A stretch of DNA of 34,073 nt, taken from positions 1 to 34,073 of the forward strand of contig CAIXPS010000047.1 of NCBI GenBank assembly GCA_903921365.1, read 5' to 3'. How positions within the stretch are numbered: position 1 is the first letter of the stretch; each line of letters begins with the position of its first letter. The notes under the pieces are model-generated. The model did not search any database and had not been told where the DNA came from. It saw only the letters and a program-made list of their open reading frames with translations. Positions 9,949 to 30,525 of this stretch are shown here, piece after piece. Position numbers and translations under genes: made by a program. This stretch comes from an uncultured bacterium (GTDB lineage: Bacteria > Chloroflexota > Anaerolineae > J036 > Brachytrichaceae).

Positions 9949-11049
9949 ATGCCAGATAGACGTTTATGGCGGCATTTTGACTTCCTGCTACTCATCGGGC
10001 TGATTCTGCTATTGATCGCAGGCACAGCGATGGTGTACAGCGCATCGCGCGGCGACCCGCTGATTGAGCGCACGCCTACAGACCAGGCCATTACTGCGCT
10101 CGTCGGCCTGATTCTTGTGCTGGTGATCAGCCTTGTCGACTACACGCTATTCAAGAATGTCGCGCTTGGGATATACGCGCTGGTCGTTTTCTCGCTGGTC
10201 GCCGTTCTGGTTGTCGGCGCCGAGAGGTTTGGCGCTCGGCGCTGGTTTGAGTTTGGAGGGTTTGACGTTCAACCCGGTGAACTCGCCAAGCTCTTTCTAG
10301 GAATCGTCCTGGCGAAGTTTGTTGCCGACCGCCAGGGTAAGCGCCCCTATCTCGAAACAGTAGGCTTATCGTTCCTGTTGATCCTCCCATGCATCGTATT
10401 GATCATGCGACAACCCAACTTGAGCAGCGCACTGATCATCCTGTTCATGTGGATGGCAATCATTTTCGTCGGCGGCATCGAACGCCAGCACATGCTGATC
10501 ATCGGCATCACGGCCGCCGCAATGGTATTGATGGTAATACAACTCGGGTTGATCCAGCCGTACCAGGTGGATCGTCTGCAAAAGCTGCTTGGGATCAATG
10601 TGGCTGCCGGCGACAATTTCCAATCCGAACAAGCGCTTATCGCCCTTGGCTCTGGCGGCTGGCTTGGACAGGGGTTTTCCCAGGGTCAACAAAGCCAGTT
10701 GCGCTTTCTCCCGGTGCGGCACACTGACTTCATTTTCTCGGTGATCGGTGAGGAACTCGGGTTTGTCGGGTCAATGGTGTTCATCGGCCTGTTAGGATTC
10801 ATCATCTACCGCGCCCTGCGCGCCGCCTGGATTGCGCGCGACACATTTGGCCGGTTACTCTGCGTCAGCATTGGCGCGGTGCTCTTTTTGCAGACGTATA
10901 TCAACCTGGGGATGCAGGTTGGCATTATGCCCGTAACTGGCGTAGTGCTTCCCTTCGTCAGCTACGGACGCAGCAATCTGCTTGCGGCGATGGCAGCAAT
11001 CGGCGTTGTTGAAAGTGTTGTAATGCGCTACCGCAAGCTTGAGTTTTAG
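9949..11049 (+). CDS. rodA: Peptidoglycan polymerase RodA (SEDS family)
   Basis: RodA is the SEDS glycosyltransferase that polymerises lipid II and works with PBP2. The 366-residue protein has about ten membrane segments. It carries the conserved HTDFIFSVIGEELGFVG segment, whose Asp260 corresponds to the catalytic aspartate of the family. The C-terminal signature GIMPVTGVVLPFVSYGRSN is also present; the last residues differ slightly from the usual GGSS. The assignment to RodA rather than FtsW rests on its place at the end of the mre/mrdA/min operon. The gene follows minE by 18 bases and ends four bases from the convergent rsfS. Confidence 0.93.
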   Translation: MPDRRLWRHFDFLLLIGLILLLIAGTAMVYSASRGDPLIERTPTDQAITALVGLILVLVISLVDYTLFKNVALGIYALVVFSLVAVLVVGAERFGARRWFEFGGFDVQPGELAKLFLGIVLAKFVADRQGKRPYLETVGLSFLLILPCIVLIMRQPNLSSALIILFMWMAIIFVGGIERQHMLIIGITAAAMVLMVIQLGLIQPYQVDRLQKLLGINVAAGDNFQSEQALIALGSGGWLGQGFSQGQQSQLRFLPVRHTDFIFSVIGEELGFVGSMVFIGLLGFIIYRALRAAWIARDTFGRLLCVSIGAVLFLQTYINLGMQVGIMPVTGVVLPFVSYGRSNLLAAMAAIGVVESVVMRYRKLEF

Positions 11050-11053
11050 GCGG

Positions 11054-11443
11054 TCACTGCATGCGCAACAACACTGGCGCAGCCGACCACAACCCTTCCA
11101 GATTATAGTAAGCGCGCACCGTTGGCGTGAATATGTGGATGACGACGTCTATGTAGTCGATTAACACCCAGCCGGTTTCGCCATTACCTTCCACGTGACG
11201 CGCCTTTAGCTTGTACTCTTTGCGCATGACATCCTGCACATTGGCAGAAATGCCGTCCAGCTGGCGATCCACGGCGCCTGAACAAATCACGAAGTAATCG
11301 GTGACTGAAGACACCCTGCGCAAATCGAGCAGCACGACATTCTCGGCTTTCTTGTCTGCGGCGGCATCCACGGCCATGCGAGCGAAGGTAATTGCATCTG
11401 TGCCTGGACGCGGTGTGACCACCGTTTCCTGGTCGCTGATCAT
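11054..11443 (-). CDS. rsfS: Ribosomal silencing factor RsfS (Iojap family)
   Basis: RsfS binds ribosomal protein L14 and prevents subunit joining under starvation. From the ATG at 11443 the protein has 129 residues. Family features include the segment VVLLDLRRVSSVTDYFVICSG and the C-terminal WVLIDYIDVVIHIFTP, ending with a YYNLEGLW-like motif. The true start is uncertain. The only strong AAGGAG lies about 24 bases before this ATG and six bases before an in-frame ATA. A longer frame to 11536 would add an unlikely hydrophobic N-terminus. It is convergent with rodA and divergent from the Amt-fold gene. Confidence 0.9.
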   Translation of the reverse strand: MISDQETVVTPRPGTDAITFARMAVDAAADKKAENVVLLDLRRVSSVTDYFVICSGAVDRQLDGISANVQDVMRKEYKLKARHVEGNGETGWVLIDYIDVVIHIFTPTVRAYYNLEGLWSAAPVLLRMQ

Positions 11444-11548
11444 CTCTGTTAACTGTTCTATAGCATGCTCCTTATATAAAATATGAATTATGAAACTCAC
11501 AAACGGAACGGACGAAATGGCTCTTATGGTGAACAATTATATCCTTGA

Positions 11549-11554
11549 TATACT
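11549..11554 (+). promoter_or_regulatory. Candidate -10 element giving a leaderless transcript
   Basis: TATACT lies nine bases before the ATG at 11563, so transcription from it would begin at or within two bases of the start codon. No ribosome-binding site precedes that ATG. The -35 region is weak (TTATGG at 11524-11529, spacing 19). Confidence 0.3.
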
Positions 11555-11562
11555 TGATTAGC

Positions 11563-13149
11563 ATGTCGGCCGCGCGTCTATTACCGTTTCTATTGCCTTT
11601 AGGCATCTGGCTCGCACAGTCAACAGCCACGCCTCGCGCGCAGGAGTCGCGTCTCGCTGCCAGCGGCCTTGTGGCGATCATTGTCTCGTTCCTGGCTTAC
11701 TTAACCCTGGGCTTTGGTTTCATGTTTGGCGGTGTGGGCACTGTTACAAGCATCCCTGATCCCGCACAGTCCGTGAGTTATTTCACTTTGCCAGTCGCCG
11801 ATCAGACATGGGGCATCCTTGGACTGCGCGGGTTCCTGCTCTATTCGGTTCCACCCGCCGCGCTGGACCTGTTCATCAGCTTTGCGCCACTGGTGGCAAC
11901 CGTTGCGGTGATGTTGTCCAGTATTCTGGTGTCACGCACAGGCATGGCAACACAGATCACCGCCGTGACATTGATCAGCGGTTTCATTTTCCCAGTCGCA
12001 GGATTCTGGCTATGGGGCGGCGGATGGCTGGGCGCCCTGGGCATCAACCTGAACCTGGGTCATGGCGCCGTCGACATTGGCGGTGTGAGCACTGCGGCAG
12101 TGACGGCAGGAGCCGCCGGCATGGCGTGGCTGTTGCGAGGGTCGCGCGACCAACAGTCGCTTCCACCACAGCTGCCGGCCAGTTACCATCCGTTCAGGGC
12201 GCTGATTGGCATCGTCTGTATGATTATTGGAGCCTGCGCCTTCTTCGCAGGAAATTCTCTATACCCAACAGTGGCCGAGAGCGCGACAAGTCAATACACG
12301 ATCAACATCCTGGTTGCGTGTAGTGTTGCGAGTCTGGTTGCTCTGGCGTATAGCGCGTTCGCGCTGCACCGTCCGGATATCCTGATCACCGGGCGAGCCG
12401 TTCTCGCAGCGCTGATCATGACTGCCGCCGGTGGAATTCTGTATTCGTCCGGCGTGGCTGCCCTTCTCGGACTATTGGCCGCACTCATCGCCATACTGGG
12501 CGCCTACACAATGACAATAGTCTTGCGAATTCGAGATGATATTGGGATTGTCACCACAGCACTACTTGCGGGCATCGCCGGTTTGATGTGCGTTGGCGTA
12601 TTCGCCAACGGAAACTATGGGAGCGGATGGAATAGCGTAGGCGCGAAGGCATACCTGGGAATAAATGGGATGGGCATCAGCGGATTAGTCTCAACCGGGA
12701 CAGCGGCAACCGATCCCGGCCAACTCACAGCCCAATTGACAGCCATATTCGCTATCGTCGCATTCTCGTTTGCCATCTTTGCTATCCCCGCGCTTGCGAT
12801 CAGACGAGTGAGCATCCCTCAATATAGCAGTGACATCGCCATGCCGGCGCCGCAAGCCGCCTCGATATCACAATCACAGGACATCTCCCCAACGCCCGAA
12901 CCTATTTCGGTTACAGCAACCTCGTCGCAAAAACCAGCAGCGGATAAACCAAATCCGGGCGCCACGCTGCTTGAGAGGCTGCGAATGGCGCGCGTAGTGC
13001 GCGCCTCGAACAAATCCACTCCCGCGCCTGCACAGGCTCGCCATGTGGCATATCCGATGCGCGCAGGCGGTCGCCGTGTGCTCCTCAGGCCGCTAATGCG
13101 ATCAAAGGAAGCTCCGGTCGCCTCGGAATCCGGCGAGAAAGCTGACTAA
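11563..13149 (+). CDS. Amt/Rh-fold membrane protein lacking the pore histidines
   Basis: This 528-residue protein has about eleven membrane segments (to about residue 415) and a Pro/Ser/Ala-rich cytosolic tail ending in a basic region. The core follows the ammonium transporter layout. There is GFGFMFGG after the second helix, then a FISFAPLVAT segment at the position of the Amt FFQ..FA..A helix. WLWGGGWLG (149-157) comes next, followed by VDIGG (170-174) and AGAAGMAWLL at the Amt DFAGG...HINAGVAGL position. The conserved aspartate is kept (Asp171). The first pore histidine is replaced by Ala179, and no histidine occurs at the second position (region 325-350 or 361-372). Ammonia conduction is therefore doubtful. 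A TTG at 11545 in frame is an alternative start. Confidence 0.65.
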   Translation: MSAARLLPFLLPLGIWLAQSTATPRAQESRLAASGLVAIIVSFLAYLTLGFGFMFGGVGTVTSIPDPAQSVSYFTLPVADQTWGILGLRGFLLYSVPPAALDLFISFAPLVATVAVMLSSILVSRTGMATQITAVTLISGFIFPVAGFWLWGGGWLGALGINLNLGHGAVDIGGVSTAAVTAGAAGMAWLLRGSRDQQSLPPQLPASYHPFRALIGIVCMIIGACAFFAGNSLYPTVAESATSQYTINILVACSVASLVALAYSAFALHRPDILITGRAVLAALIMTAAGGILYSSGVAALLGLLAALIAILGAYTMTIVLRIRDDIGIVTTALLAGIAGLMCVGVFANGNYGSGWNSVGAKAYLGINGMGISGLVSTGTAATDPGQLTAQLTAIFAIVAFSFAIFAIPALAIRRVSIPQYSSDIAMPAPQAASISQSQDISPTPEPISVTATSSQKPAADKPNPGATLLERLRMARVVRASNKSTPAPAQARHVAYPMRAGGRRVLLRPLMRSKEAPVASESGEKAD

Positions 13150-13958
13150 GACGCGCGCCACATCCGCGCCAGGCGCCGATACATATCGAAGTTGTAATAA
13201 GCCGTCAAAGCGCACAAGCGCAGACCGTGCAGCCCATCCTGATACCCTTTCAATTGAATGAAACGCCGCCGGAACTCCCGCGCCGGCTGCAAGACAAAAT
13301 TGCGGGGTTTTGGCCGTATGCCCTGCTTGAATAGAATCCCGGCGTCAAGTTCAGCATACTTCTTCTGCTTCATGTGGAACTGATCCACCGTTTCGTAGTT
13401 ATAGTGAACCAGTGTGTTTTTCAAGTAACCCATTGTCCCCTGAAACAGGGCGACCTCATGAACCTCACGTGAGGGGTCGAACGACGCGCGACCGACCTGA
13501 AATAACCGCGCCTGGAAGTCAGGATACCAACCGGCGCCACGGGTTAACCGGCCAAACAGGTAATTGTCGCGTGGGACAGCCCACACAGGGTGATCGCTGG
13601 ATCGGACTGAGGCTCGAAGTTCCACCGCCAGCGCATCCGCACAACGCTCATCGGCATCTATAAAAAAGACCCATGCGGCATTTGACGCCGACAGTGCGGC
13701 GTTCCGCTGTTGGGCGAAATTCTGGAAGGGGTGCGCGATGACAGTGGCGCCCGCATCACGCGCAATGGCCTGCGTATTATCCGTGCTGCCTGAATCAAAC
13801 ACGATCCGTGTATCCGCCCAACGCACTGTCTGAAGACAATCTGCAATATGTTTCTGTTCGTTGTAAGTGAGGATCACCGCAGCGACACTCACCGCAGCGC
13901 CTGTCTGATAATCCGTCTCAGGTTTTGCCAGCATGAAGTCTATTTTAGGACTACCCAT
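13146..13958 (-). CDS. Glycosyltransferase family 2 (WaaE/KdtX-like)
   Basis: This 270-residue protein is a GT-A fold glycosyltransferase that transfers a sugar from a nucleotide donor in the cytoplasm. It starts with VAAVILTYNEQKHIADCL, the usual first strand and helix. FDSGSTDNT follows, and then the metal-binding DAD (101-103) in FFIDADER. The later region carries AVPRDNYLFGRLTRGAGWYPD, seen in the LPS-core glucosyltransferase-like subgroup. No membrane segment is present. It overlaps the convergent Amt-fold gene by four bases and starts 41 bases from tRNA-Cys. A second in-frame ATG at 13934 is possible. The acceptor is unknown. Confidence 0.85.
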   Translation of the reverse strand: MGSPKIDFMLAKPETDYQTGAAVSVAAVILTYNEQKHIADCLQTVRWADTRIVFDSGSTDNTQAIARDAGATVIAHPFQNFAQQRNAALSASNAAWVFFIDADERCADALAVELRASVRSSDHPVWAVPRDNYLFGRLTRGAGWYPDFQARLFQVGRASFDPSREVHEVALFQGTMGYLKNTLVHYNYETVDQFHMKQKKYAELDAGILFKQGIRPKPRNFVLQPAREFRRRFIQLKGYQDGLHGLRLCALTAYYNFDMYRRLARMWRAS

Positions 13959-14903: not shown

Positions 14904-14917
14904 CAAACGGTTGTTAG
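14904..14917. promoter_or_regulatory. Operator-like site 3, overlapping the acyltransferase stop codon
   Basis: CAAACG-GT-TGTTAG has the same orientation as site 2, with 43 bases between their starts. It overlaps the stop codon (14914-14916) of the acyltransferase gene. AGTCGATCAAAC shows that the flanking sequence is shared with site 2. Confidence 0.5.
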
Positions 14918-17145
14918 TTTGCAGGCTTTACGGTGCCCGGACGTTGCTTCAGGATCGCATCAAATGCCTTAACCTGTGCAACTATTGTCTGGGCATAGAG
15001 CCGGCGTCCGGGCGGCTGCGGGTGTACTCCATCTTCCACGAAGAGTTCGGGATGCGGATCGCTCGCTGAATACCAATCAACAAGCACCGCATTGGAAGTT
15101 CGTTTGACGCCCTCGTCGAACAACGTGTTGTTTGGTCCTTCCCAGCGTCTGGGGACGCGCACATTGACCACCGCCACCACTCGAACCCCCGAAAGAATCT
15201 GCATCATCTCGTCGAACTGTTTGAGCGTCACATAACCGTTGCTGCCAATATGCAGCACAACGATATCGCCAAGAGTTCCGGCATCACGTCGCTGCTGTAG
15301 CACGACGATCGCTGCCGCTGCCTGCCGGCTGACAACTGCATCGACCTCTGCCCCGCCAAAAGCCTGTTGCAAGTCGAGAGAAGCGCCCAGCATGACAGAA
15401 TCACCTATAGCAAGAACATGGTAATTGGCCCCGAGCACATCCGTGATGGTCTGGGTGATCAAAGAGGGAACTGGCGTCGCTATTGGAATAACCGGCGCGA
15501 GAGTTGCAGGCACTGCTGCGGTGGGTGTATCGCCTGGGACCAGATCGGTGATCGTTGCAGTTGCGCCAGGCGCTACAGTTGCTGTGTCCGGAACCGGAAT
15601 GCCTGTCGGGGTATTACTGCCATCAACCGTGGAAACCGCTAATGCATAAGGCCATTGCGGTTGATAGGTCGCCTTTACGACCACCGGAGTGGGTGTTGCC
15701 GTTCTGATGATTGCAGGAGTCGGTTTTACGCCAATCGTCTTGGCAGGGACAACCACCACGGTGGAAAGCGTGATTGATGGGATCGCTGCAGTAGGCACAA
15801 CTACTGTGGCGCTCGGTTGAACCTCTACGTACTCCGCTGGGATATCCGCCGGTTTTGCGTTGACAACCGGGATGACTATACCAACTGCCAGCACGACTGA
15901 TGCCCCCACCCCGACAACCCATGGCGCCAGGCGCTTCCTTGATTTTGCCGTGCGGGCGCGTTTCCACAGCCTGCCCAGCGCGCCATCACGAATGGGGCGC
16001 TCGACATAGCGATACGAGAGTTCCGCGCAGACGAGTGTGAGCGCAAACCGCAGGATAAGAAGCGCGATGCCATCCAGGGCAATATCGAGGTGGGGGCGAG
16101 TCAAATTGAAGATCGGCCAGTGCCATAGATAAATGCTATAGGAGCGCAGTCCAATCCAGGCAAACAAACGATTGCCAAGCGCGCCAGGCACAAGGCGTTT
16201 CCCCGGCAATACAACAGCGATGATCATAACAGCCGTGAGCAGCGAGACAAGCGTGAACCCACCGGGGTACAGATAAGGGTTGATCTCGTCCAGCTTCACG
16301 AAACAGACGATCAGACCCGCCAATGCAACGATGCCGCTCCCATCCAATAGAACACGGGCGCCTCGCGAACTCACGCCGGCATCCCGCTTCAGCGCGATGA
16401 ACATCGCAAGAGCGGCCCCGATCAGGAAACCGGCCGCGCGGGTGTCTGTCCCATAATAGACGCGTGATGGATCCACGTCAGGTTGGTACATCATCACCAT
16501 CAAGGCAGTGGATGCCGCTGCCAACGCCAGTGTAAGCAACGGAAACACAACCTGCCTGCGCGGACGCAGCCAGTGCAAGGCAAGCGCCAGAATCACCGGC
16601 CAGACAAGGTAAAACTGTTCTTCGACGGCCAGCGACCAGAGGTGCCGCAGTAACGGCGGCCGGCCGATGGCTTCAAAGTAGGATTGGTGGCTAAAGACCT
16701 GGTACCAGTTACTGACATATACGGCTGCTGCCAGCACATCGAAGCGCAGAGATGCGACCTCATTTGGCAGGAAGAGCACAGCGAAAAGCAGGACTACCAG
16801 AAGGAGCAAAAAGACGGCCGGGAGTAGCCGGCGAGCGCGCCGGAACCAGAAGCGACCCAGGTTAATCCGTGCGTTCTTCCGCCATTCTGCCAGCAGCAGA
16901 CCCGTAATCAGGTAGCCACTGATAACAAAGAAAACCTCGACACCAAGGAAACCACCCGGCATCCATGGCACTTCGGCATGGTAAAACAGGACGGCAAGGA
17001 CTGCGATCGCGCGCAAGCCATCAATACCGGGCAAATAAGGTAACCGCGAAGGGCCGGAAGCAGCCGCCGAGGGGGATGATTCCGCGGCGATATCCGACGA
17101 CTCTGGCTTTACAGTAGCAACATTCTGCACGTTCAGTAGACTCAC
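14914..17145 (-). CDS. Acyltransferase-3 / SGNH hydrolase fusion (OatA-like)
   Basis: Such fusions move an acyl group, usually acetyl, across the membrane and attach it to peptidoglycan or a surface polysaccharide. The 743-residue protein has a polar N-terminus and an acyltransferase-3 membrane domain (about 36-400). That domain carries the IDGLRAIAVLAVLFYHAE motif (His56) and HLWSLAVEEQFYLVWP. A last membrane helix and an unusually long extracellular Thr/Pro/Val-rich linker (about 430-570) follow. The SGNH domain starts at AIGDSVMLG (Ser near 582), has GSNG, and ends with the catalytic pair in DGVHP (near 705). The start is GTG at 17145 without a clear ribosome-binding site. The acceptor polymer is unknown. 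Confidence 0.88.
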   Translation of the reverse strand: MSLLNVQNVATVKPESSDIAAESSPSAAASGPSRLPYLPGIDGLRAIAVLAVLFYHAEVPWMPGGFLGVEVFFVISGYLITGLLLAEWRKNARINLGRFWFRRARRLLPAVFLLLLVVLLFAVLFLPNEVASLRFDVLAAAVYVSNWYQVFSHQSYFEAIGRPPLLRHLWSLAVEEQFYLVWPVILALALHWLRPRRQVVFPLLTLALAAASTALMVMMYQPDVDPSRVYYGTDTRAAGFLIGAALAMFIALKRDAGVSSRGARVLLDGSGIVALAGLIVCFVKLDEINPYLYPGGFTLVSLLTAVMIIAVVLPGKRLVPGALGNRLFAWIGLRSYSIYLWHWPIFNLTRPHLDIALDGIALLILRFALTLVCAELSYRYVERPIRDGALGRLWKRARTAKSRKRLAPWVVGVGASVVLAVGIVIPVVNAKPADIPAEYVEVQPSATVVVPTAAIPSITLSTVVVVPAKTIGVKPTPAIIRTATPTPVVVKATYQPQWPYALAVSTVDGSNTPTGIPVPDTATVAPGATATITDLVPGDTPTAAVPATLAPVIPIATPVPSLITQTITDVLGANYHVLAIGDSVMLGASLDLQQAFGGAEVDAVVSRQAAAAIVVLQQRRDAGTLGDIVVLHIGSNGYVTLKQFDEMMQILSGVRVVAVVNVRVPRRWEGPNNTLFDEGVKRTSNAVLVDWYSASDPHPELFVEDGVHPQPPGRRLYAQTIVAQVKAFDAILKQRPGTVKPAN

Positions 17146-24484: not shown

Positions 24485-27400
24485 ATGATTGTTATGAATG
24501 ACTCAGACTGTAAATCACAGTTTCCCAAAGCCGAGGGTCTATACGATCCGGCGTTTGAACACGACGCCTGCGGCGTTGGACTGATCTCGAATATCAAGGG
24601 CGCTCAGTCGCACGAGATCGTCCGTATGGGTCTCGAAATGCTCGAAAATCTGAGTCATCGCGGCGCCGTTGGCAGCGACCCCGACACCGGCGATGGCGCC
24701 GGCATCCTGATGCATGTGCCGCACGCCTTTCTCAAGGCGCAATGCAGTGATCTGGGTATTCACCTTCCGGCGCCCGGCCAATACGCCGTCGGCATGCTTT
24801 TTACCCCGCGCGACAACGCCGGACGTTGCATGGAGATATTCGAGAAGGCCCTGCGCGACGAAGACATGAAAGTACTGGGATGGCGTCGCGTGCCGACTGA
24901 CCCAATGACGGTTGGCGTGACGGCCCGCAGCACCGTGCCCGAGGTTATGCAGGTCTTTGTGGCGAATCCCGGCGTGGATTATCTGACTTTTGAACGCCAA
25001 ATGTATGTCGCGCGGCGCGTGGCCGAAAACGCGGCCATCAAAGAAGGGGGCATAATCGCCGACCGATTCTATGTGCCCAGCCTCGGCAGCCACACCATCG
25101 TCTACAAAGGCATGATGATGGCGCACCAGTTGGGCAAGTTCTACCCCGAACTGAACGACCCGCAGGTAACCTCCGCCGTCTCGATCGTGCACGCCCGCTA
25201 CAGCACAAACACGTTCCCAAGCTGGCCACTGGCACAGCCATTTCGCGCGATGTGCCATAACGGCGAGATCAACACGCTGCGTGGAAACATCAACAAGCTG
25301 ATGGCGCGCCGGTCAATGCTGGCTACCAAAGCCTTTGGAGACGACATCAAGAAACTGATGCCGATCATCATTGAAGGCATGAGCGACTCCGCCTGCTTCG
25401 ACAACATGCTTGAGATGCTCTATCTGGGCGGTCGCAGCCTGCCCCACTCGATCCTGATGATGATCCCTGAAGCATGGGGAGACAAGTACTACATGGGGCA
25501 TGACCGGCGCGGGTTTTATGAGTACCACGCCAACATCATGGAACCATGGGACGGGCCGGCGGCAATCCTCTTTACCGACGGTGTGCAGTCCGGCGGCATC
25601 CTCGACCGTAATGGCCTGCGACCTTTGCGCTACACCATTACCCGGAATGACCTGCTCGTGCTTGGATCCGAAACCGGCGCGCTGGAACTCGATACGGATG
25701 ATATCGTTGAGCGCGGCCGACTGCGCCCCGGCAAGATGATGATCGTCGATGTCGCCAAACAACGCGTGCTAACCAACGATGAAGTCAAGGCGGACATCAC
25801 CCGCCAGCAACACTACCGTCGCTGGGTGACAGCGAACCGTATTGAGTTTCAAGGTTTCGGCATCGGAGCGGGCGCGACAGATTATGAACCCGCCACATTG
25901 TTGACGCGCCAGACCGTTTTTGGGTATACGCGCGAAGACTTGAATGTGCTCATCCGGCCGATGGCGTCATCCGCAACTGAGCCCATTGGATCCATGGGCA
26001 ACGACACGCCACTAGCGGTGCTTTCAGACCAGCCCCAACTGGTGTTCAGCTACTTCAAACAGATTTTCGCGCAGGTGACGAACCCGCCGATTGACCCGAT
26101 CCGCGAGCGCCTGGTCATGTCACTCACCACCTTCCTGGGGGGTGAGGGAAACATCCTGGAAGAAAAACCCGATCATGCGCGGCGTCTGAAACTGCGCGCG
26201 CCTATCCTCACCACGGTCGATCTGGAACGCATTCGCTTATCCAAGCTGCCCGAGTTCCGCGCCATGACGCTCGAAACCCTGTTCGATGCAAATCTGGGCG
26301 AAGACGCGCTGGAAGCCGCGATGGATGATCTGTGTCAGAAAGCGGCGGCGTGTGTCGAGCAGGGATACCACATCATTATCCTGAGCGACCGAAATACCTC
26401 GTCAGATCGGGCGCCTATTCCCAGTCTCCTGGCCGCATCTGGCGTCGCCCACCACCTGATCAACGCCGGCATCCGCAATCGCGTCGGGCTGATCGTTGAA
26501 TCGGGCGAACCGCGCGAGGTGAATCATTTTGCGCTATTGCTCAGCTATGGCTGCGACGCTATTTGCCCCTATCTCGCCTTCGAAACCGTCGCCAGCCTGC
26601 ATGCACAAGGCGAACTCCCCAAAACATTGACGCTGCAGGATGCCATCGAGAACTACATCAAGGCAGTCAGCGACGGCATTCTCAAGATACTGTCAAAGAT
26701 GGGCATCTCGACACTGCGCAGTTACAACGGTGCGCAGATCTACGAGTGCCTTGGTTTCAACAAGGAGTTTGTCGCTAAGTACTTCACAAAAACAACGTCG
26801 CGCATCGGTGGGATCGGCATCACGCATGTGGCTCGCGAAGCCCTCATGCGCCACACACAGGCCTATGAAATACGCCGCGGCGTCGATCTCTCACTGAATA
26901 GCGGCGGGTTCTACTCCTTAAGGATGGATGGCGAGCGTCACCTGTGGTCGCCCGAAGCGATTCACTATCTGCAGCAGTCCACTCGGCAGAACAACCCGCA
27001 GCTTTACAAGAAGTATGCGGATGAGATCAACTGCCAGGAGAACCGCTGGGTGACATTGCGCAGCTTGCTCGACTTCAAGACAGACGGCGCAACCCCCGTT
27101 CCGCTGGCCGAGGTCGAATCTGCGGATGAGATTGTGAAGCGCTTCACCACTGCCGCAATGTCCTTTGGATCTCTCAGCCGCGAGGCGCACGAGTCGATGG
27201 CGATTGCAATGAACCGCATGGGCGCGCGCTCGAACAGCGGCGAGGGCGGCGAAGACTCGGCGCGCTATACGCCCATGCCCAATGGCGATTCGCGCAGCAG
27301 TAGCGTCAAACAAGTCGCCTCCGCCCGCTTTGGCGTCACTGCGGAGTATCTGGCCAATGCCAAAGAAATCCAGATAAAGATCGCACAGGGAGCGAAACCC

Positions 27401-29059
27401 GGAGAAGGCGGCCACCTGCCCGGCCACAAGGTGAATGTCGAAATCGCGAAGACGCGCAACGCCACGCCCGGCGTCAGCCTCATCTCCCCACCCCCTCATC
27501 ACGATATCTACTCGATCGAGGATCTGGCGCAGTTGATCTTCGACTTGAAAAACGCCAACCCGACCGCGCGCATCAGCGTTAAGCTGGTTTCAGAAGCGGG
27601 CGTGGGCACGATTGCCGCCGGCGTGTGCAAGGGGCATGCCGACATGGTGCTGATCAGCGGCGGCGACGGTGGAACCGGCGCGAGCCCGCTCTCCAGCATC
27701 AAACATGCCGGATTGCCATGGGAACTGGGGATTTCCGAGACGCACCAGACCCTGGTGAAAAATGACCTGCGCGGGCGAATCCGTCTGCAGGCGGATGGGC
27801 AGATGCGCACCGGGCGTGACATAGCCATGGCGGCGCTCCTCGGCGCAGAGGAATATGGCTTCGGCACGAGCCCGCTGATCGTCCTGGGTTGCGTGATGCA
27901 GCGCAAGTGCCATCTAAACACCTGCGCCATGGGTATCACCACACAGGATCCGCGTTTGCGAGCCCGTTTCCAGGGGAAACCCGAATTCCTGATACGCTAC
28001 TTCCACTTCGTCGCCGAAGAGTTGCGCGGGATCATGGCACAACTCGGCGTGCGCACCGTGGATGAGATGATCGGTCGCGTCGAATTTCTGAAGGCGCGAG
28101 AGAACATCACACACTGGAAGGCGAAGGAACTCGACTTCTCCGCCATTCTGCACAAGGTCGATGCGCCTGCATCAGTGGCGCGGTACAGGGTGCAAGCGCA
28201 GGATCACGGGATCGACAACGTGCTCGATCTCAAATTGTTAACAGACGCCATGCCCGTGATTGAAGCGGGCACAGGCAAAGTCGAAAAGAGCTACGCGATC
28301 CGCAACAGCAATCGCACAACGGGCGCGATGGTGTCATTTGAAATCGCGCGGCGCCATGGGCATAAAGGCCTGCCCGATGATTCAATTACATTCAGCTTTA
28401 CCGGATCGGCTGGTCAGAGCTTCGGCGCCTTCGCCGCGCGGGGGCTTTCGCTCTTCCTGGAAGGGGATGCGAACGATTACGTCGGAAAGGGGCTTTCGGG
28501 CGGCCGGCTGGTGATCCGGGCGCCACGCAACACGCGCTTTGACCCGGCGCAAAACGTCATCGTGGGTAATACGGTTCTGTATGGCGCCACCTGCGGGGAG
28601 GTCTACTTAAACGGCCTGGCCGGTGAGCGTTTTGCAGTGCGCAATTCGGGCGCGCGCGCCGTCGTAGAGGGCGTCGGCGATCATGGTTGCGAGTACATGA
28701 CGGGTGGCGTGGTGGCTGTGCTCGGCCCGATTGGGGTGAACTTCGCGGCCGGTATGAGCGGTGGTATTGCCTACCTGTATGACCCCACGCAGGATGTCGA
28801 CACGCTGGTCAACCATGACATGGTTGACCTGGACCCGCTGACAGATCAAGAGGACATCGATGAACTTTACGGCATGATAGAAAAGCACTGGCAATATACC
28901 GGCAGCCAGCGCGCGCGCTTCATGCTCGACGACTGGGATATTGTGCGCCGCATGTTTGTGAAGGTATTCCCCATGGAATATCGCCGCGCACTGGGTCAAA
29001 TGAAGAAGGTTGAACGCAATGTGCGTCGTACCGAGGGTGAAAAGGTGGAACAGGCTTAA
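24485..29059 (+). CDS. gltB: Glutamate synthase large (alpha) subunit
   Basis: GltB hydrolyses glutamine and transfers the ammonia to 2-oxoglutarate, giving glutamate. The 1524-residue precursor has a 28-residue propeptide; Cys29 in HDACGVGLI is the expected N-terminal nucleophile after processing. The class II amidotransferase domain also shows RYSTNTFPSWPLAQPF and CHNGEINTLRGN. The FMN/2-oxoglutarate domain has PGEGGHLPGHKV and ISGGDGGTGASP. The 3Fe-4S cysteines are Cys1136, Cys1142 and Cys1147 in CVMQRKCHLNTC. The C-terminal beta-helix is glycine-rich (GCEYMTGGVVAVLG). GAAGG sits eight bases before the ATG at 24485, favouring it over the in-frame ATG at 24494. The length is normal for the bacterial enzyme, and gltD follows two bases after the stop. 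Confidence 0.97.
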   Translation: MIVMNDSDCKSQFPKAEGLYDPAFEHDACGVGLISNIKGAQSHEIVRMGLEMLENLSHRGAVGSDPDTGDGAGILMHVPHAFLKAQCSDLGIHLPAPGQYAVGMLFTPRDNAGRCMEIFEKALRDEDMKVLGWRRVPTDPMTVGVTARSTVPEVMQVFVANPGVDYLTFERQMYVARRVAENAAIKEGGIIADRFYVPSLGSHTIVYKGMMMAHQLGKFYPELNDPQVTSAVSIVHARYSTNTFPSWPLAQPFRAMCHNGEINTLRGNINKLMARRSMLATKAFGDDIKKLMPIIIEGMSDSACFDNMLEMLYLGGRSLPHSILMMIPEAWGDKYYMGHDRRGFYEYHANIMEPWDGPAAILFTDGVQSGGILDRNGLRPLRYTITRNDLLVLGSETGALELDTDDIVERGRLRPGKMMIVDVAKQRVLTNDEVKADITRQQHYRRWVTANRIEFQGFGIGAGATDYEPATLLTRQTVFGYTREDLNVLIRPMASSATEPIGSMGNDTPLAVLSDQPQLVFSYFKQIFAQVTNPPIDPIRERLVMSLTTFLGGEGNILEEKPDHARRLKLRAPILTTVDLERIRLSKLPEFRAMTLETLFDANLGEDALEAAMDDLCQKAAACVEQGYHIIILSDRNTSSDRAPIPSLLAASGVAHHLINAGIRNRVGLIVESGEPREVNHFALLLSYGCDAICPYLAFETVASLHAQGELPKTLTLQDAIENYIKAVSDGILKILSKMGISTLRSYNGAQIYECLGFNKEFVAKYFTKTTSRIGGIGITHVAREALMRHTQAYEIRRGVDLSLNSGGFYSLRMDGERHLWSPEAIHYLQQSTRQNNPQLYKKYADEINCQENRWVTLRSLLDFKTDGATPVPLAEVESADEIVKRFTTAAMSFGSLSREAHESMAIAMNRMGARSNSGEGGEDSARYTPMPNGDSRSSSVKQVASARFGVTAEYLANAKEIQIKIAQGAKPGEGGHLPGHKVNVEIAKTRNATPGVSLISPPPHHDIYSIEDLAQLIFDLKNANPTARISVKLVSEAGVGTIAAGVCKGHADMVLISGGDGGTGASPLSSIKHAGLPWELGISETHQTLVKNDLRGRIRLQADGQMRTGRDIAMAALLGAEEYGFGTSPLIVLGCVMQRKCHLNTCAMGITTQDPRLRARFQGKPEFLIRYFHFVAEELRGIMAQLGVRTVDEMIGRVEFLKARENITHWKAKELDFSAILHKVDAPASVARYRVQAQDHGIDNVLDLKLLTDAMPVIEAGTGKVEKSYAIRNSNRTTGAMVSFEIARRHGHKGLPDDSITFSFTGSAGQSFGAFAARGLSLFLEGDANDYVGKGLSGGRLVIRAPRNTRFDPAQNVIVGNTVLYGATCGEVYLNGLAGERFAVRNSGARAVVEGVGDHGCEYMTGGVVAVLGPIGVNFAAGMSGGIAYLYDPTQDVDTLVNHDMVDLDPLTDQEDIDELYGMIEKHWQYTGSQRARFMLDDWDIVRRMFVKVFPMEYRRALGQMKKVERNVRRTEGEKVEQA

Positions 29060-29061
29060 TA

Positions 29062-30525
29062 ATGGATAAATCAACCGGGTTCATAAATATCGAACGCAAG
29101 ATCGCTGAAAAGCAGCCAGCAACCGAGCGCATCCTGCATTTCCAGGAATTCAGGCAGCGCATGAGCGCTGATGAAGTCCGCGAGCAAGCCGCAAGGTGCA
29201 TGGATTGTGGCGTGCCGTTCTGTCACAGCGCAGGATGTCCACTCGACAACGTGGTGCCGGAGTTTGTAGACCTCGTTCATCGCGAGCGTTGGCGCGAGGC
29301 GGCAGACCTGCTGCAGTCCACAAATAACTTCCCTGAAATCACAGGACGGGTGTGCCCGGCGTTGTGTGAAACATCGTGTGTCAATGCGATTGACAGCCAG
29401 GCCACCAGCATTCGCGAGATCGAGTTGGAAGTAATCGAGAAAGCCTTCGACGAGGGCTGGGTGCAGCCCAGACCGCCAACGATCCTGACAGGCAAGCGGG
29501 TGGCCATCATCGGATCAGGCCCTGCGGGATTAGCGGCGGCGCAGCAGTTGCGCCGCGCGGGTCACAAGGTCGTCGTTTTCGATAAGGCCAACAAACCCGG
29601 CGGCATACTGCGCTACGGCATACCCGACTTCAAACTCGACAAGAAGGTGCTGGATCGCCGTCTCGATCAACTTCGCGCCGAAGGTGTTTCATTCAAGTGT
29701 CAGGTGGAAATCGGCAAGGATGTTTCAGTCGACTATCTGCGCCGCGGTTTCAATGCCGTCTGCATCACGATTGGCGCAATGCAACCCCGCGATTTACCCG
29801 TCCCCGGTCGCGAATTAAAAGGCGTGCACCTCGCGATCGAGTATCTGTCGCAAAACAATCGTCGCGTTGCCGGCGAAACCATTGCTGAAGAGCAATCCAT
29901 TCTGGCAACAGGAAAGCACATTGTCATCATCGGCGGCGGCGACACGGGCAGCGATTGCCTCGGCACTGCGATCCGCCAGGGCGCACTCAGCGTGCAGCAA
30001 CTCGAAGTGCTGCCCCGACCTCCGGAGTCTCGCCCCGACAACAACCCATGGCCGCAATGGCCGCTCATCATTCGCAGCAGCACGTCGCATGAGGAAGGCG
30101 GGGCTCGCGACTGGTCGGTCAATACCGTTCGTTTTAAGGGTGAAGAGGGGCATGTGACTGCGATGGAGTGCGTGCGGCTGGAGTGGGCCAAGTCGCCCGA
30201 CGGGCGCACGGTGATGACTCCCGTGCCCGGGAGCGAGTTCGAGATCAAGGCCGACCTGGTGCTCCTTGCGATGGGCTTCGTGCGCCCCGTGCATGACGGC
30301 TTGCTCGACAGCCTCAATGTCGAATACGATGCGCGAGGCAACGTAAAGGTGAATCCTGAAATGATGACCAACGTCCCCGGCATATTTGCGGCGGGTGATG
30401 CAAACACCGGCGCCTGGCTGGTTGTCGGCGCCATCGCAGCGGGTCGGCGCCTGGCGCGGCGGGTGGATCGCTATCTGATGGGTGAAACATCCCTTCCAGA
30501 AACCATCCTGCCCAATAAGCTATAG
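29062..30525 (+). CDS. gltD: Glutamate synthase small (beta) subunit
   Basis: GltD oxidises NAD(P)H through FAD and passes electrons to GltB through iron-sulfur centres. The 487-residue protein has N-terminal cysteines at 46, 49, 54 and 59 and again at 98, 102 and 106, as expected for two 4Fe-4S sites. The FAD-binding motif is IIGSGPAGLAAA (149-160), and a second nucleotide-binding motif is VIIGGGDTGSDC. The C-terminal FAAGDANTGAWLVVGAI completes the flavin site. The start is two bases after the gltB stop, so the pair is coupled. No terminator is obvious after it, and transcription may continue into the DUF433 gene. Confidence 0.97.
   Translation: MDKSTGFINIERKIAEKQPATERILHFQEFRQRMSADEVREQAARCMDCGVPFCHSAGCPLDNVVPEFVDLVHRERWREAADLLQSTNNFPEITGRVCPALCETSCVNAIDSQATSIREIELEVIEKAFDEGWVQPRPPTILTGKRVAIIGSGPAGLAAAQQLRRAGHKVVVFDKANKPGGILRYGIPDFKLDKKVLDRRLDQLRAEGVSFKCQVEIGKDVSVDYLRRGFNAVCITIGAMQPRDLPVPGRELKGVHLAIEYLSQNNRRVAGETIAEEQSILATGKHIVIIGGGDTGSDCLGTAIRQGALSVQQLEVLPRPPESRPDNNPWPQWPLIIRSSTSHEEGGARDWSVNTVRFKGEEGHVTAMECVRLEWAKSPDGRTVMTPVPGSEFEIKADLVLLAMGFVRPVHDGLLDSLNVEYDARGNVKVNPEMMTNVPGIFAAGDANTGAWLVVGAIAAGRRLARRVDRYLMGETSLPETILPNKL

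Follow-up and report, generated by a model that had tools for sequence, protein, structure and literature searches.

The window, i.e., the whole analysed stretch of 34,073 nucleotides, encodes an Amt-like protein of 528 aa without pore histidines on the forward strand (11563..13149), assigned from the open reading frame, a PF00909 match and a predicted model. The frame starts with ATG at 11563 and its stop codon ends at 13149; starting instead at a TTG 18 bases upstream would lengthen the protein by six residues, without consequence. PF00909 was the only Pfam family found in the protein (79.4 bits against a cut-off of 23.2, E 2.8e-22, residues 9-413), which confirmed the placement of an Amt/Rh-type frame here by the earlier note. 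The cut-off of TIGR00836, the amt subfamily of NCBIfam, was missed (63.3 vs 343.3 bits). Since the first profile was passed and the second fell far short, the protein is, judged by its sequence, an Amt homologue by descent that is remote from ordinary Amts. The best PDB sequence match was the sensor Ks-Amt5 (6eu6, E 2.3e-9).

The divergent neighbour is rsfS, the ribosomal silencing factor gene (11054..11536, reverse strand). Beyond it lies rodA (9949..11049, forward strand), which closes the mreBCD-pbp2-minCDE-rodA cluster; rsfS and the Amt-like gene come after this cluster. The divergent rsfS was found in 16/16 loci examined in the window's family, window included, and rodA followed in 15 of these, i.e., all but G018. 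The same divergent pair was found in G039, a genome of another family (L142:4747-5633). The back-to-back position of the two genes, both there and in the window (11054-11563), makes a shared control region possible; scans for promoters and terminators in the gap between rsfS and the window gene gave nothing above chance. Four genomes (G007, G012, G021 and G017) have rodA and lack the Amt-like gene at that place. In three of them (L154, L152 and L153, respectively, for the first three), RodA has 396-419 aa vs 366, with an insertion near residue 198, and this longer RodA may just reflect kinship.

Downstream of the gene, a glycosyltransferase (13146-13958) lies near a membrane acyltransferase (14914-17145) that combines a long stretch rich in Thr and Pro with a GDS-type (SGNH-like) part at its C-terminus. 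The pair likely serves envelope modification. These genes were rejected as functional partners of the Amt-like gene, being conserved in near relatives only. Both subunits of glutamate synthase, large and small, are encoded about 11 kb downstream (24485-30525).

Two other PF00909 genes were found in the same genome. Both scored above 370 bits and have the full canonical set of pore residues. Each is closely followed by a PII gene of its own (C84:38538 and C212:14183), whereas no PII gene neighbours the window gene. Ammonium uptake is thus covered without the window gene, and the idea that its product is the genome's own ammonium transporter, with normal uptake missing, was rejected. Amt matches of another kind were seen in G297 (C1:328736-329563) and G118 (C1:273074-273883), where they lie within frames of 1116 and 1168 aa, probably an Amt joined to a large fused part.

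The core of the Amt-like gene showed dN/dS values of 0.10-0.36 in six pairs. In three genome pairs the values were 0.10, 0.36 and 0.24, and the same pairs gave 0.04-0.07 for canonical Amt and 0.05-0.10 for RodA. The gene in the window's family is under purifying selection that is looser than in canonical Amt and RodA. This 2-6-fold excess over canonical Amt, together with a copy in G006 that has no Pfam match, could suggest a transporter gene in decay without function. However, the values stay well below 1, about 20 species of the family have an uninterrupted frame, and both the position of the locus and a peptide of the tail are conserved. A pseudogene was made unlikely by dN/dS and conservation, and functionless decay is considered highly improbable.

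Pore residues and predicted fold

The pore positions were read from two alignments. The first contained the window protein, E. coli AmtB (L098), the two canonical Amts of the genome and relatives; the second, independent one joined the window protein to 21 named canonical Amts of other phyla. The positions themselves were partly taken from the AmtB literature. Asp171 (codon 12073..12075, forward strand as all codons here) aligned with AmtB D160, as claimed before. The twin-His pair of AmtB, H168 and H318, is replaced by A179 (12097..12099) and A333 (12559..12561), in columns that are nearly invariant His among the 21 canonical Amts. The loss of both pore histidines had been proposed by the earlier note, and neither alignment places a His in the pore. 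The only histidines of the protein are residues 167, 209, 269 and 494, none of them in a transmembrane helix of the model, so an overlooked second pore histidine was rejected.

Other pore features are partly retained. Of the Phe gate, F107 is lost (L110) and F215 is kept (F227). In the outer ammonium site, W148 (W151) and D160 are kept and S219 is changed to N231. Further replacements are W212 to A224, T273 to A288 and D313 to G328, and the AmtB S263 column in TM8 is occupied by R278 (12394..12396). The reading of pore positions across homologues, recommended by the earlier note, found the His loss in many relatives and throughout the orthologues of the window's family that were read. Because the loss is shared in this way, chance was excluded.

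The structure was predicted by AlphaFold2 from the window protein and 21 distant Amts. The model reached a pTM of 0.72, although it leans on canonical Amts because these made up the remaining rows of the alignment, and it comprises eleven long confident helices and a disordered tail. By VIA-align, the closest structures were Ks-Amt5 6eu6 (Z 45.8), A. fulgidus Amt-1 (45.6), AmtB 1u77 (43.2) and Rh50 (36), and the RhAG-RhCE complex was also among the fold matches. Beyond Amt/Rh, urea transporters gave Z 13 and unrelated folds less than 6. The 11-helix Amt fold, suspected earlier from helix motifs, is thus predicted for the window protein and superposes on AmtB. From the model and the Amt topology, i.e., which side is cytosolic, R278 is the sixth residue of TM8 from the cytosolic side.

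Histidine loss and pore constraint across the clade

Related genes were found in 50/60 relatives, some of these being canonical Amts, and at E 1e-50 in 122/199 genomes of the class, where some lower-scoring ones are canonical Amts. The clade was read in 108 members from the window's phylum, some of them from fragmented assemblies. It was split from canonical Amts with 100/100 support in IQ-TREE (66 sequences). FastTree support at the clade root was low (0.32 after re-rooting), so the separation rests on the IQ-TREE split. The suggestion of a divergent subfamily in the earlier note was right but understated, as the clade has at least 108 members with repeated His loss.

Both pore histidines are absent in 68 of the 108 members, one is left in 11 and both are kept in 29. 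By parsimony on the FastTree tree, at least 11 changes are needed for H168 and 9 for H318. The His columns carry Ala, Gly, Ser, Asn, Gln, Val, Leu, Tyr or Phe, in pairs such as Gly/Val, Gly/Ala, Ala/Val, Phe/Phe (12 members), Phe/Leu, Phe/Thr, Tyr/Ala, Asn/His and others. The twin-Phe form recurs in several families of the class (L199, L203, L207, L222, L224, L230, L235 and L240). The first 30 homologues hinted that H168 was always lost before H318, but four H168-only members in the larger set refuted this order. Outside the His pair, F107 is lost in 107/108, the outer Asp is kept in 106/108 and W148 in 85/108.

The effect of twin-His loss is known from E. coli AmtB. Without the pair, the selective transporter becomes an unselective channel through which ammonium still passes, and some of the variants pass potassium (PMC9040831, PMC10433425). 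His loss alone therefore does not mean loss of conduction. The earlier note had expected twin-His loss to change or abolish conduction: the change holds, but simple abolition does not for AmtB (PMC9040831, PMC10433425). Because of this behaviour, it is improbable, by analogy with AmtB, that the window protein transports ammonium selectively. An unselective ion channel could be considered instead, whose pore would hydrate and let ammonium and/or potassium through, with the tail perhaps controlling the gating. Besides the AmtB variants, this would suit the residues A179, A224 and A333, which are smaller than their AmtB counterparts, so that the pore of the window protein could stay open. However, the bulky residues that replace the histidines in sister lineages, twin-Phe among them, would close the pore, and an open leak would be costly.

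The TM8 position also bears on the channel. Arg occupies the S263 column in 98/108 clade members and in 0/34 canonical Amts, where Asn (31), Ser or Thr is found. This Arg sits in the inner half of TM8 and, if turned towards the pore, would be expected to work against cations; the channel is considered unlikely on the whole. In AmtB, GlnK pushes its Arg47 into the cytoplasmic pore exit and thereby blocks it (PMC4274968). It is only by analogy that the TM8 Arg of the clade might act much as Arg47 of GlnK does.

Column entropy was compared at 21 positions that line the pore according to the AmtB literature. Canonical Amts showed a mean of 0.55 bits at these positions vs 1.62 in the core, whereas the clade showed 1.95 vs 1.99. 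Across the clade, the pore is no longer a specially conserved region. In the window's family alone the values were 1.28 vs 1.56 bits, and random sets of positions were equally conserved in 4%. By region, the outer loops were the most conserved (0.64) and the inner loops the least (0.49) in the clade outside the window's family; in canonical Amts, the inner loops were highest (0.66 vs 0.55 for the outer loops).

These patterns bear on a transporter of a different solute, for which the outer Asp and the clade-specific Arg would form a new putative binding site. The near invariance of both residues (106/108 and 98/108) and the conserved outer loops are in keeping with it. However, the remaining pore is not conserved in the clade, the His replacements differ between lineages and no substrate gene is a constant neighbour. 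The heterogeneous replacements seem to fit dispensable conduction better than a pore tuned to one new solute, and such a transporter is regarded as quite unlikely.

Cytosolic tail and putative role

The cytosolic tail covers residues 417-528 (12811..13146, forward strand), and the long tail described in the earlier note is real. Its linker (417-465) is variable, disordered and rich in Pro, Ala and Ser. A short helix is predicted at 469-482, and the conserved C-terminal peptide, RHVAYPxRxGGRxxxxRP, occupies residues 493-510 (13039..13092, forward strand). The general form in the family is [R/K]xVAYPxRxGGRxxxxRP. Majority-residue conservation was highest in the peptide (0.67), followed by the core (0.55) and the linker (0.38). 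The tail had no Pfam match, and with PF00909 as the only hit of the protein, no fused signalling domain was found there.

In the window's family, the peptide is specific to this gene. The pattern VAYPxRxxGR, searched in DNA, was found in 17/28 genomes with one match each at the Amt-like gene, plus one stray match in G018. A motif common to other proteins was therefore rejected, this stray match aside. Outside the window's family, the peptide core was sought in 76 members of the class, and none of them had it. The copy in G006 (L151:3480-5039) has no Pfam match, and the one in G018 (L155:3074-4594) scores 24.5 bits, just over the cut-off. The outer Asp is gone from both, yet rsfS is still their neighbour and the C-terminal peptide is intact. 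In these copies, the peptide has outlived the eroded pore signature.

Because the pore is unconstrained, the outer face is intact, the tail peptide is conserved and canonical Amts are present elsewhere in the genome, a non-conducting receptor or scaffold is judged most likely. We give a probability of roughly one half to this reading, in which, on sequence and model evidence, the window protein would be an Amt-fold membrane receptor or scaffold that acts through its cytosolic tail. As the clade has lost its pore histidines many times, the window protein is probably a transporter turned into a membrane sensor or anchor. Of the roles offered by the earlier note, i.e., sensor, scaffold or transporter of another solute, the evidence leans to the first two, and the last stays as the quite unlikely rival described above.

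In the mechanism that we propose, the 11-helix body would be retained as a membrane receptor or scaffold and would not conduct. The outer face around D171 would be kept intact, and the pore would be freed from constraint. In most of the clade, TM8 has an Arg towards its inner side, and in the window's family the conserved peptide at the tail end may bind a putative partner. Against the receptor or scaffold, the pore positions in the window's family are still somewhat more conserved than average. A more specific proposal is that the clade abandoned transport and that the window's family became a tail-driven adaptor, which would pass an outside signal to ribosome silencing by rsfS or to the RodA/Min growth machinery. 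This proposal is decidedly unlikely as it stands.

The repeated loss of the twin-His in one bacterial clade, for which parsimony requires a minimum of 9 to 11 changes, has a meaning beyond this locus. The clade offers a complete natural range from H/H, over forms with a single His, to A/A, G/V and F/F, and thereby ready-made variants for testing the role of the histidines. The same variants bear on whether loss of transport is compatible with keeping the fold, and on a possible non-transport role of bacterial Amt-fold proteins without a fused kinase. Among the papers searched, the terms used turned up none dealing with bacterial Amts that lack the histidines or with proteins of this kind close to rodA.

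Comparison with known systems

Canonical AmtB and Amt1 share with the window protein the fold, Asp160, Trp148 and the general helix motifs. However, the window protein has no twin-His and no F107, carries Asn for S219 and Arg for N/S263, lacks a PII neighbour and has a long tail.

The Rh30 proteins, i.e., RhD and RhCE of the red cell Rhesus complex, also have the Amt/Rh fold without the twin-His and serve as structural partners. Unlike the window protein, they belong to the animal Rh branch and have RhAG partners; the tail is not shared and the similarity is lower (Z 36).

The fungal Mep proteins with Glu in place of the first His were termed in 2020 the only twin-His variation in the family (PMC7447429). 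They resemble the window protein as a natural variation of the pair, but they retain one His and their transport is active.

Ks-Amt5 (PDB 6eu6) is the top match in both sequence and fold, and like the window protein it joins an Amt fold to a cytosolic tail. It is an Amt body that lost transport and became a sensor (PMC5764959), a precedent for the receptor or scaffold reading given above. However, Ks-Amt5 still has both pore histidines together with the Phe gate and the W/S filter, and it includes a histidine kinase. In the window protein, the two histidines, F107 and S219 are gone, and the tail is without a known domain.
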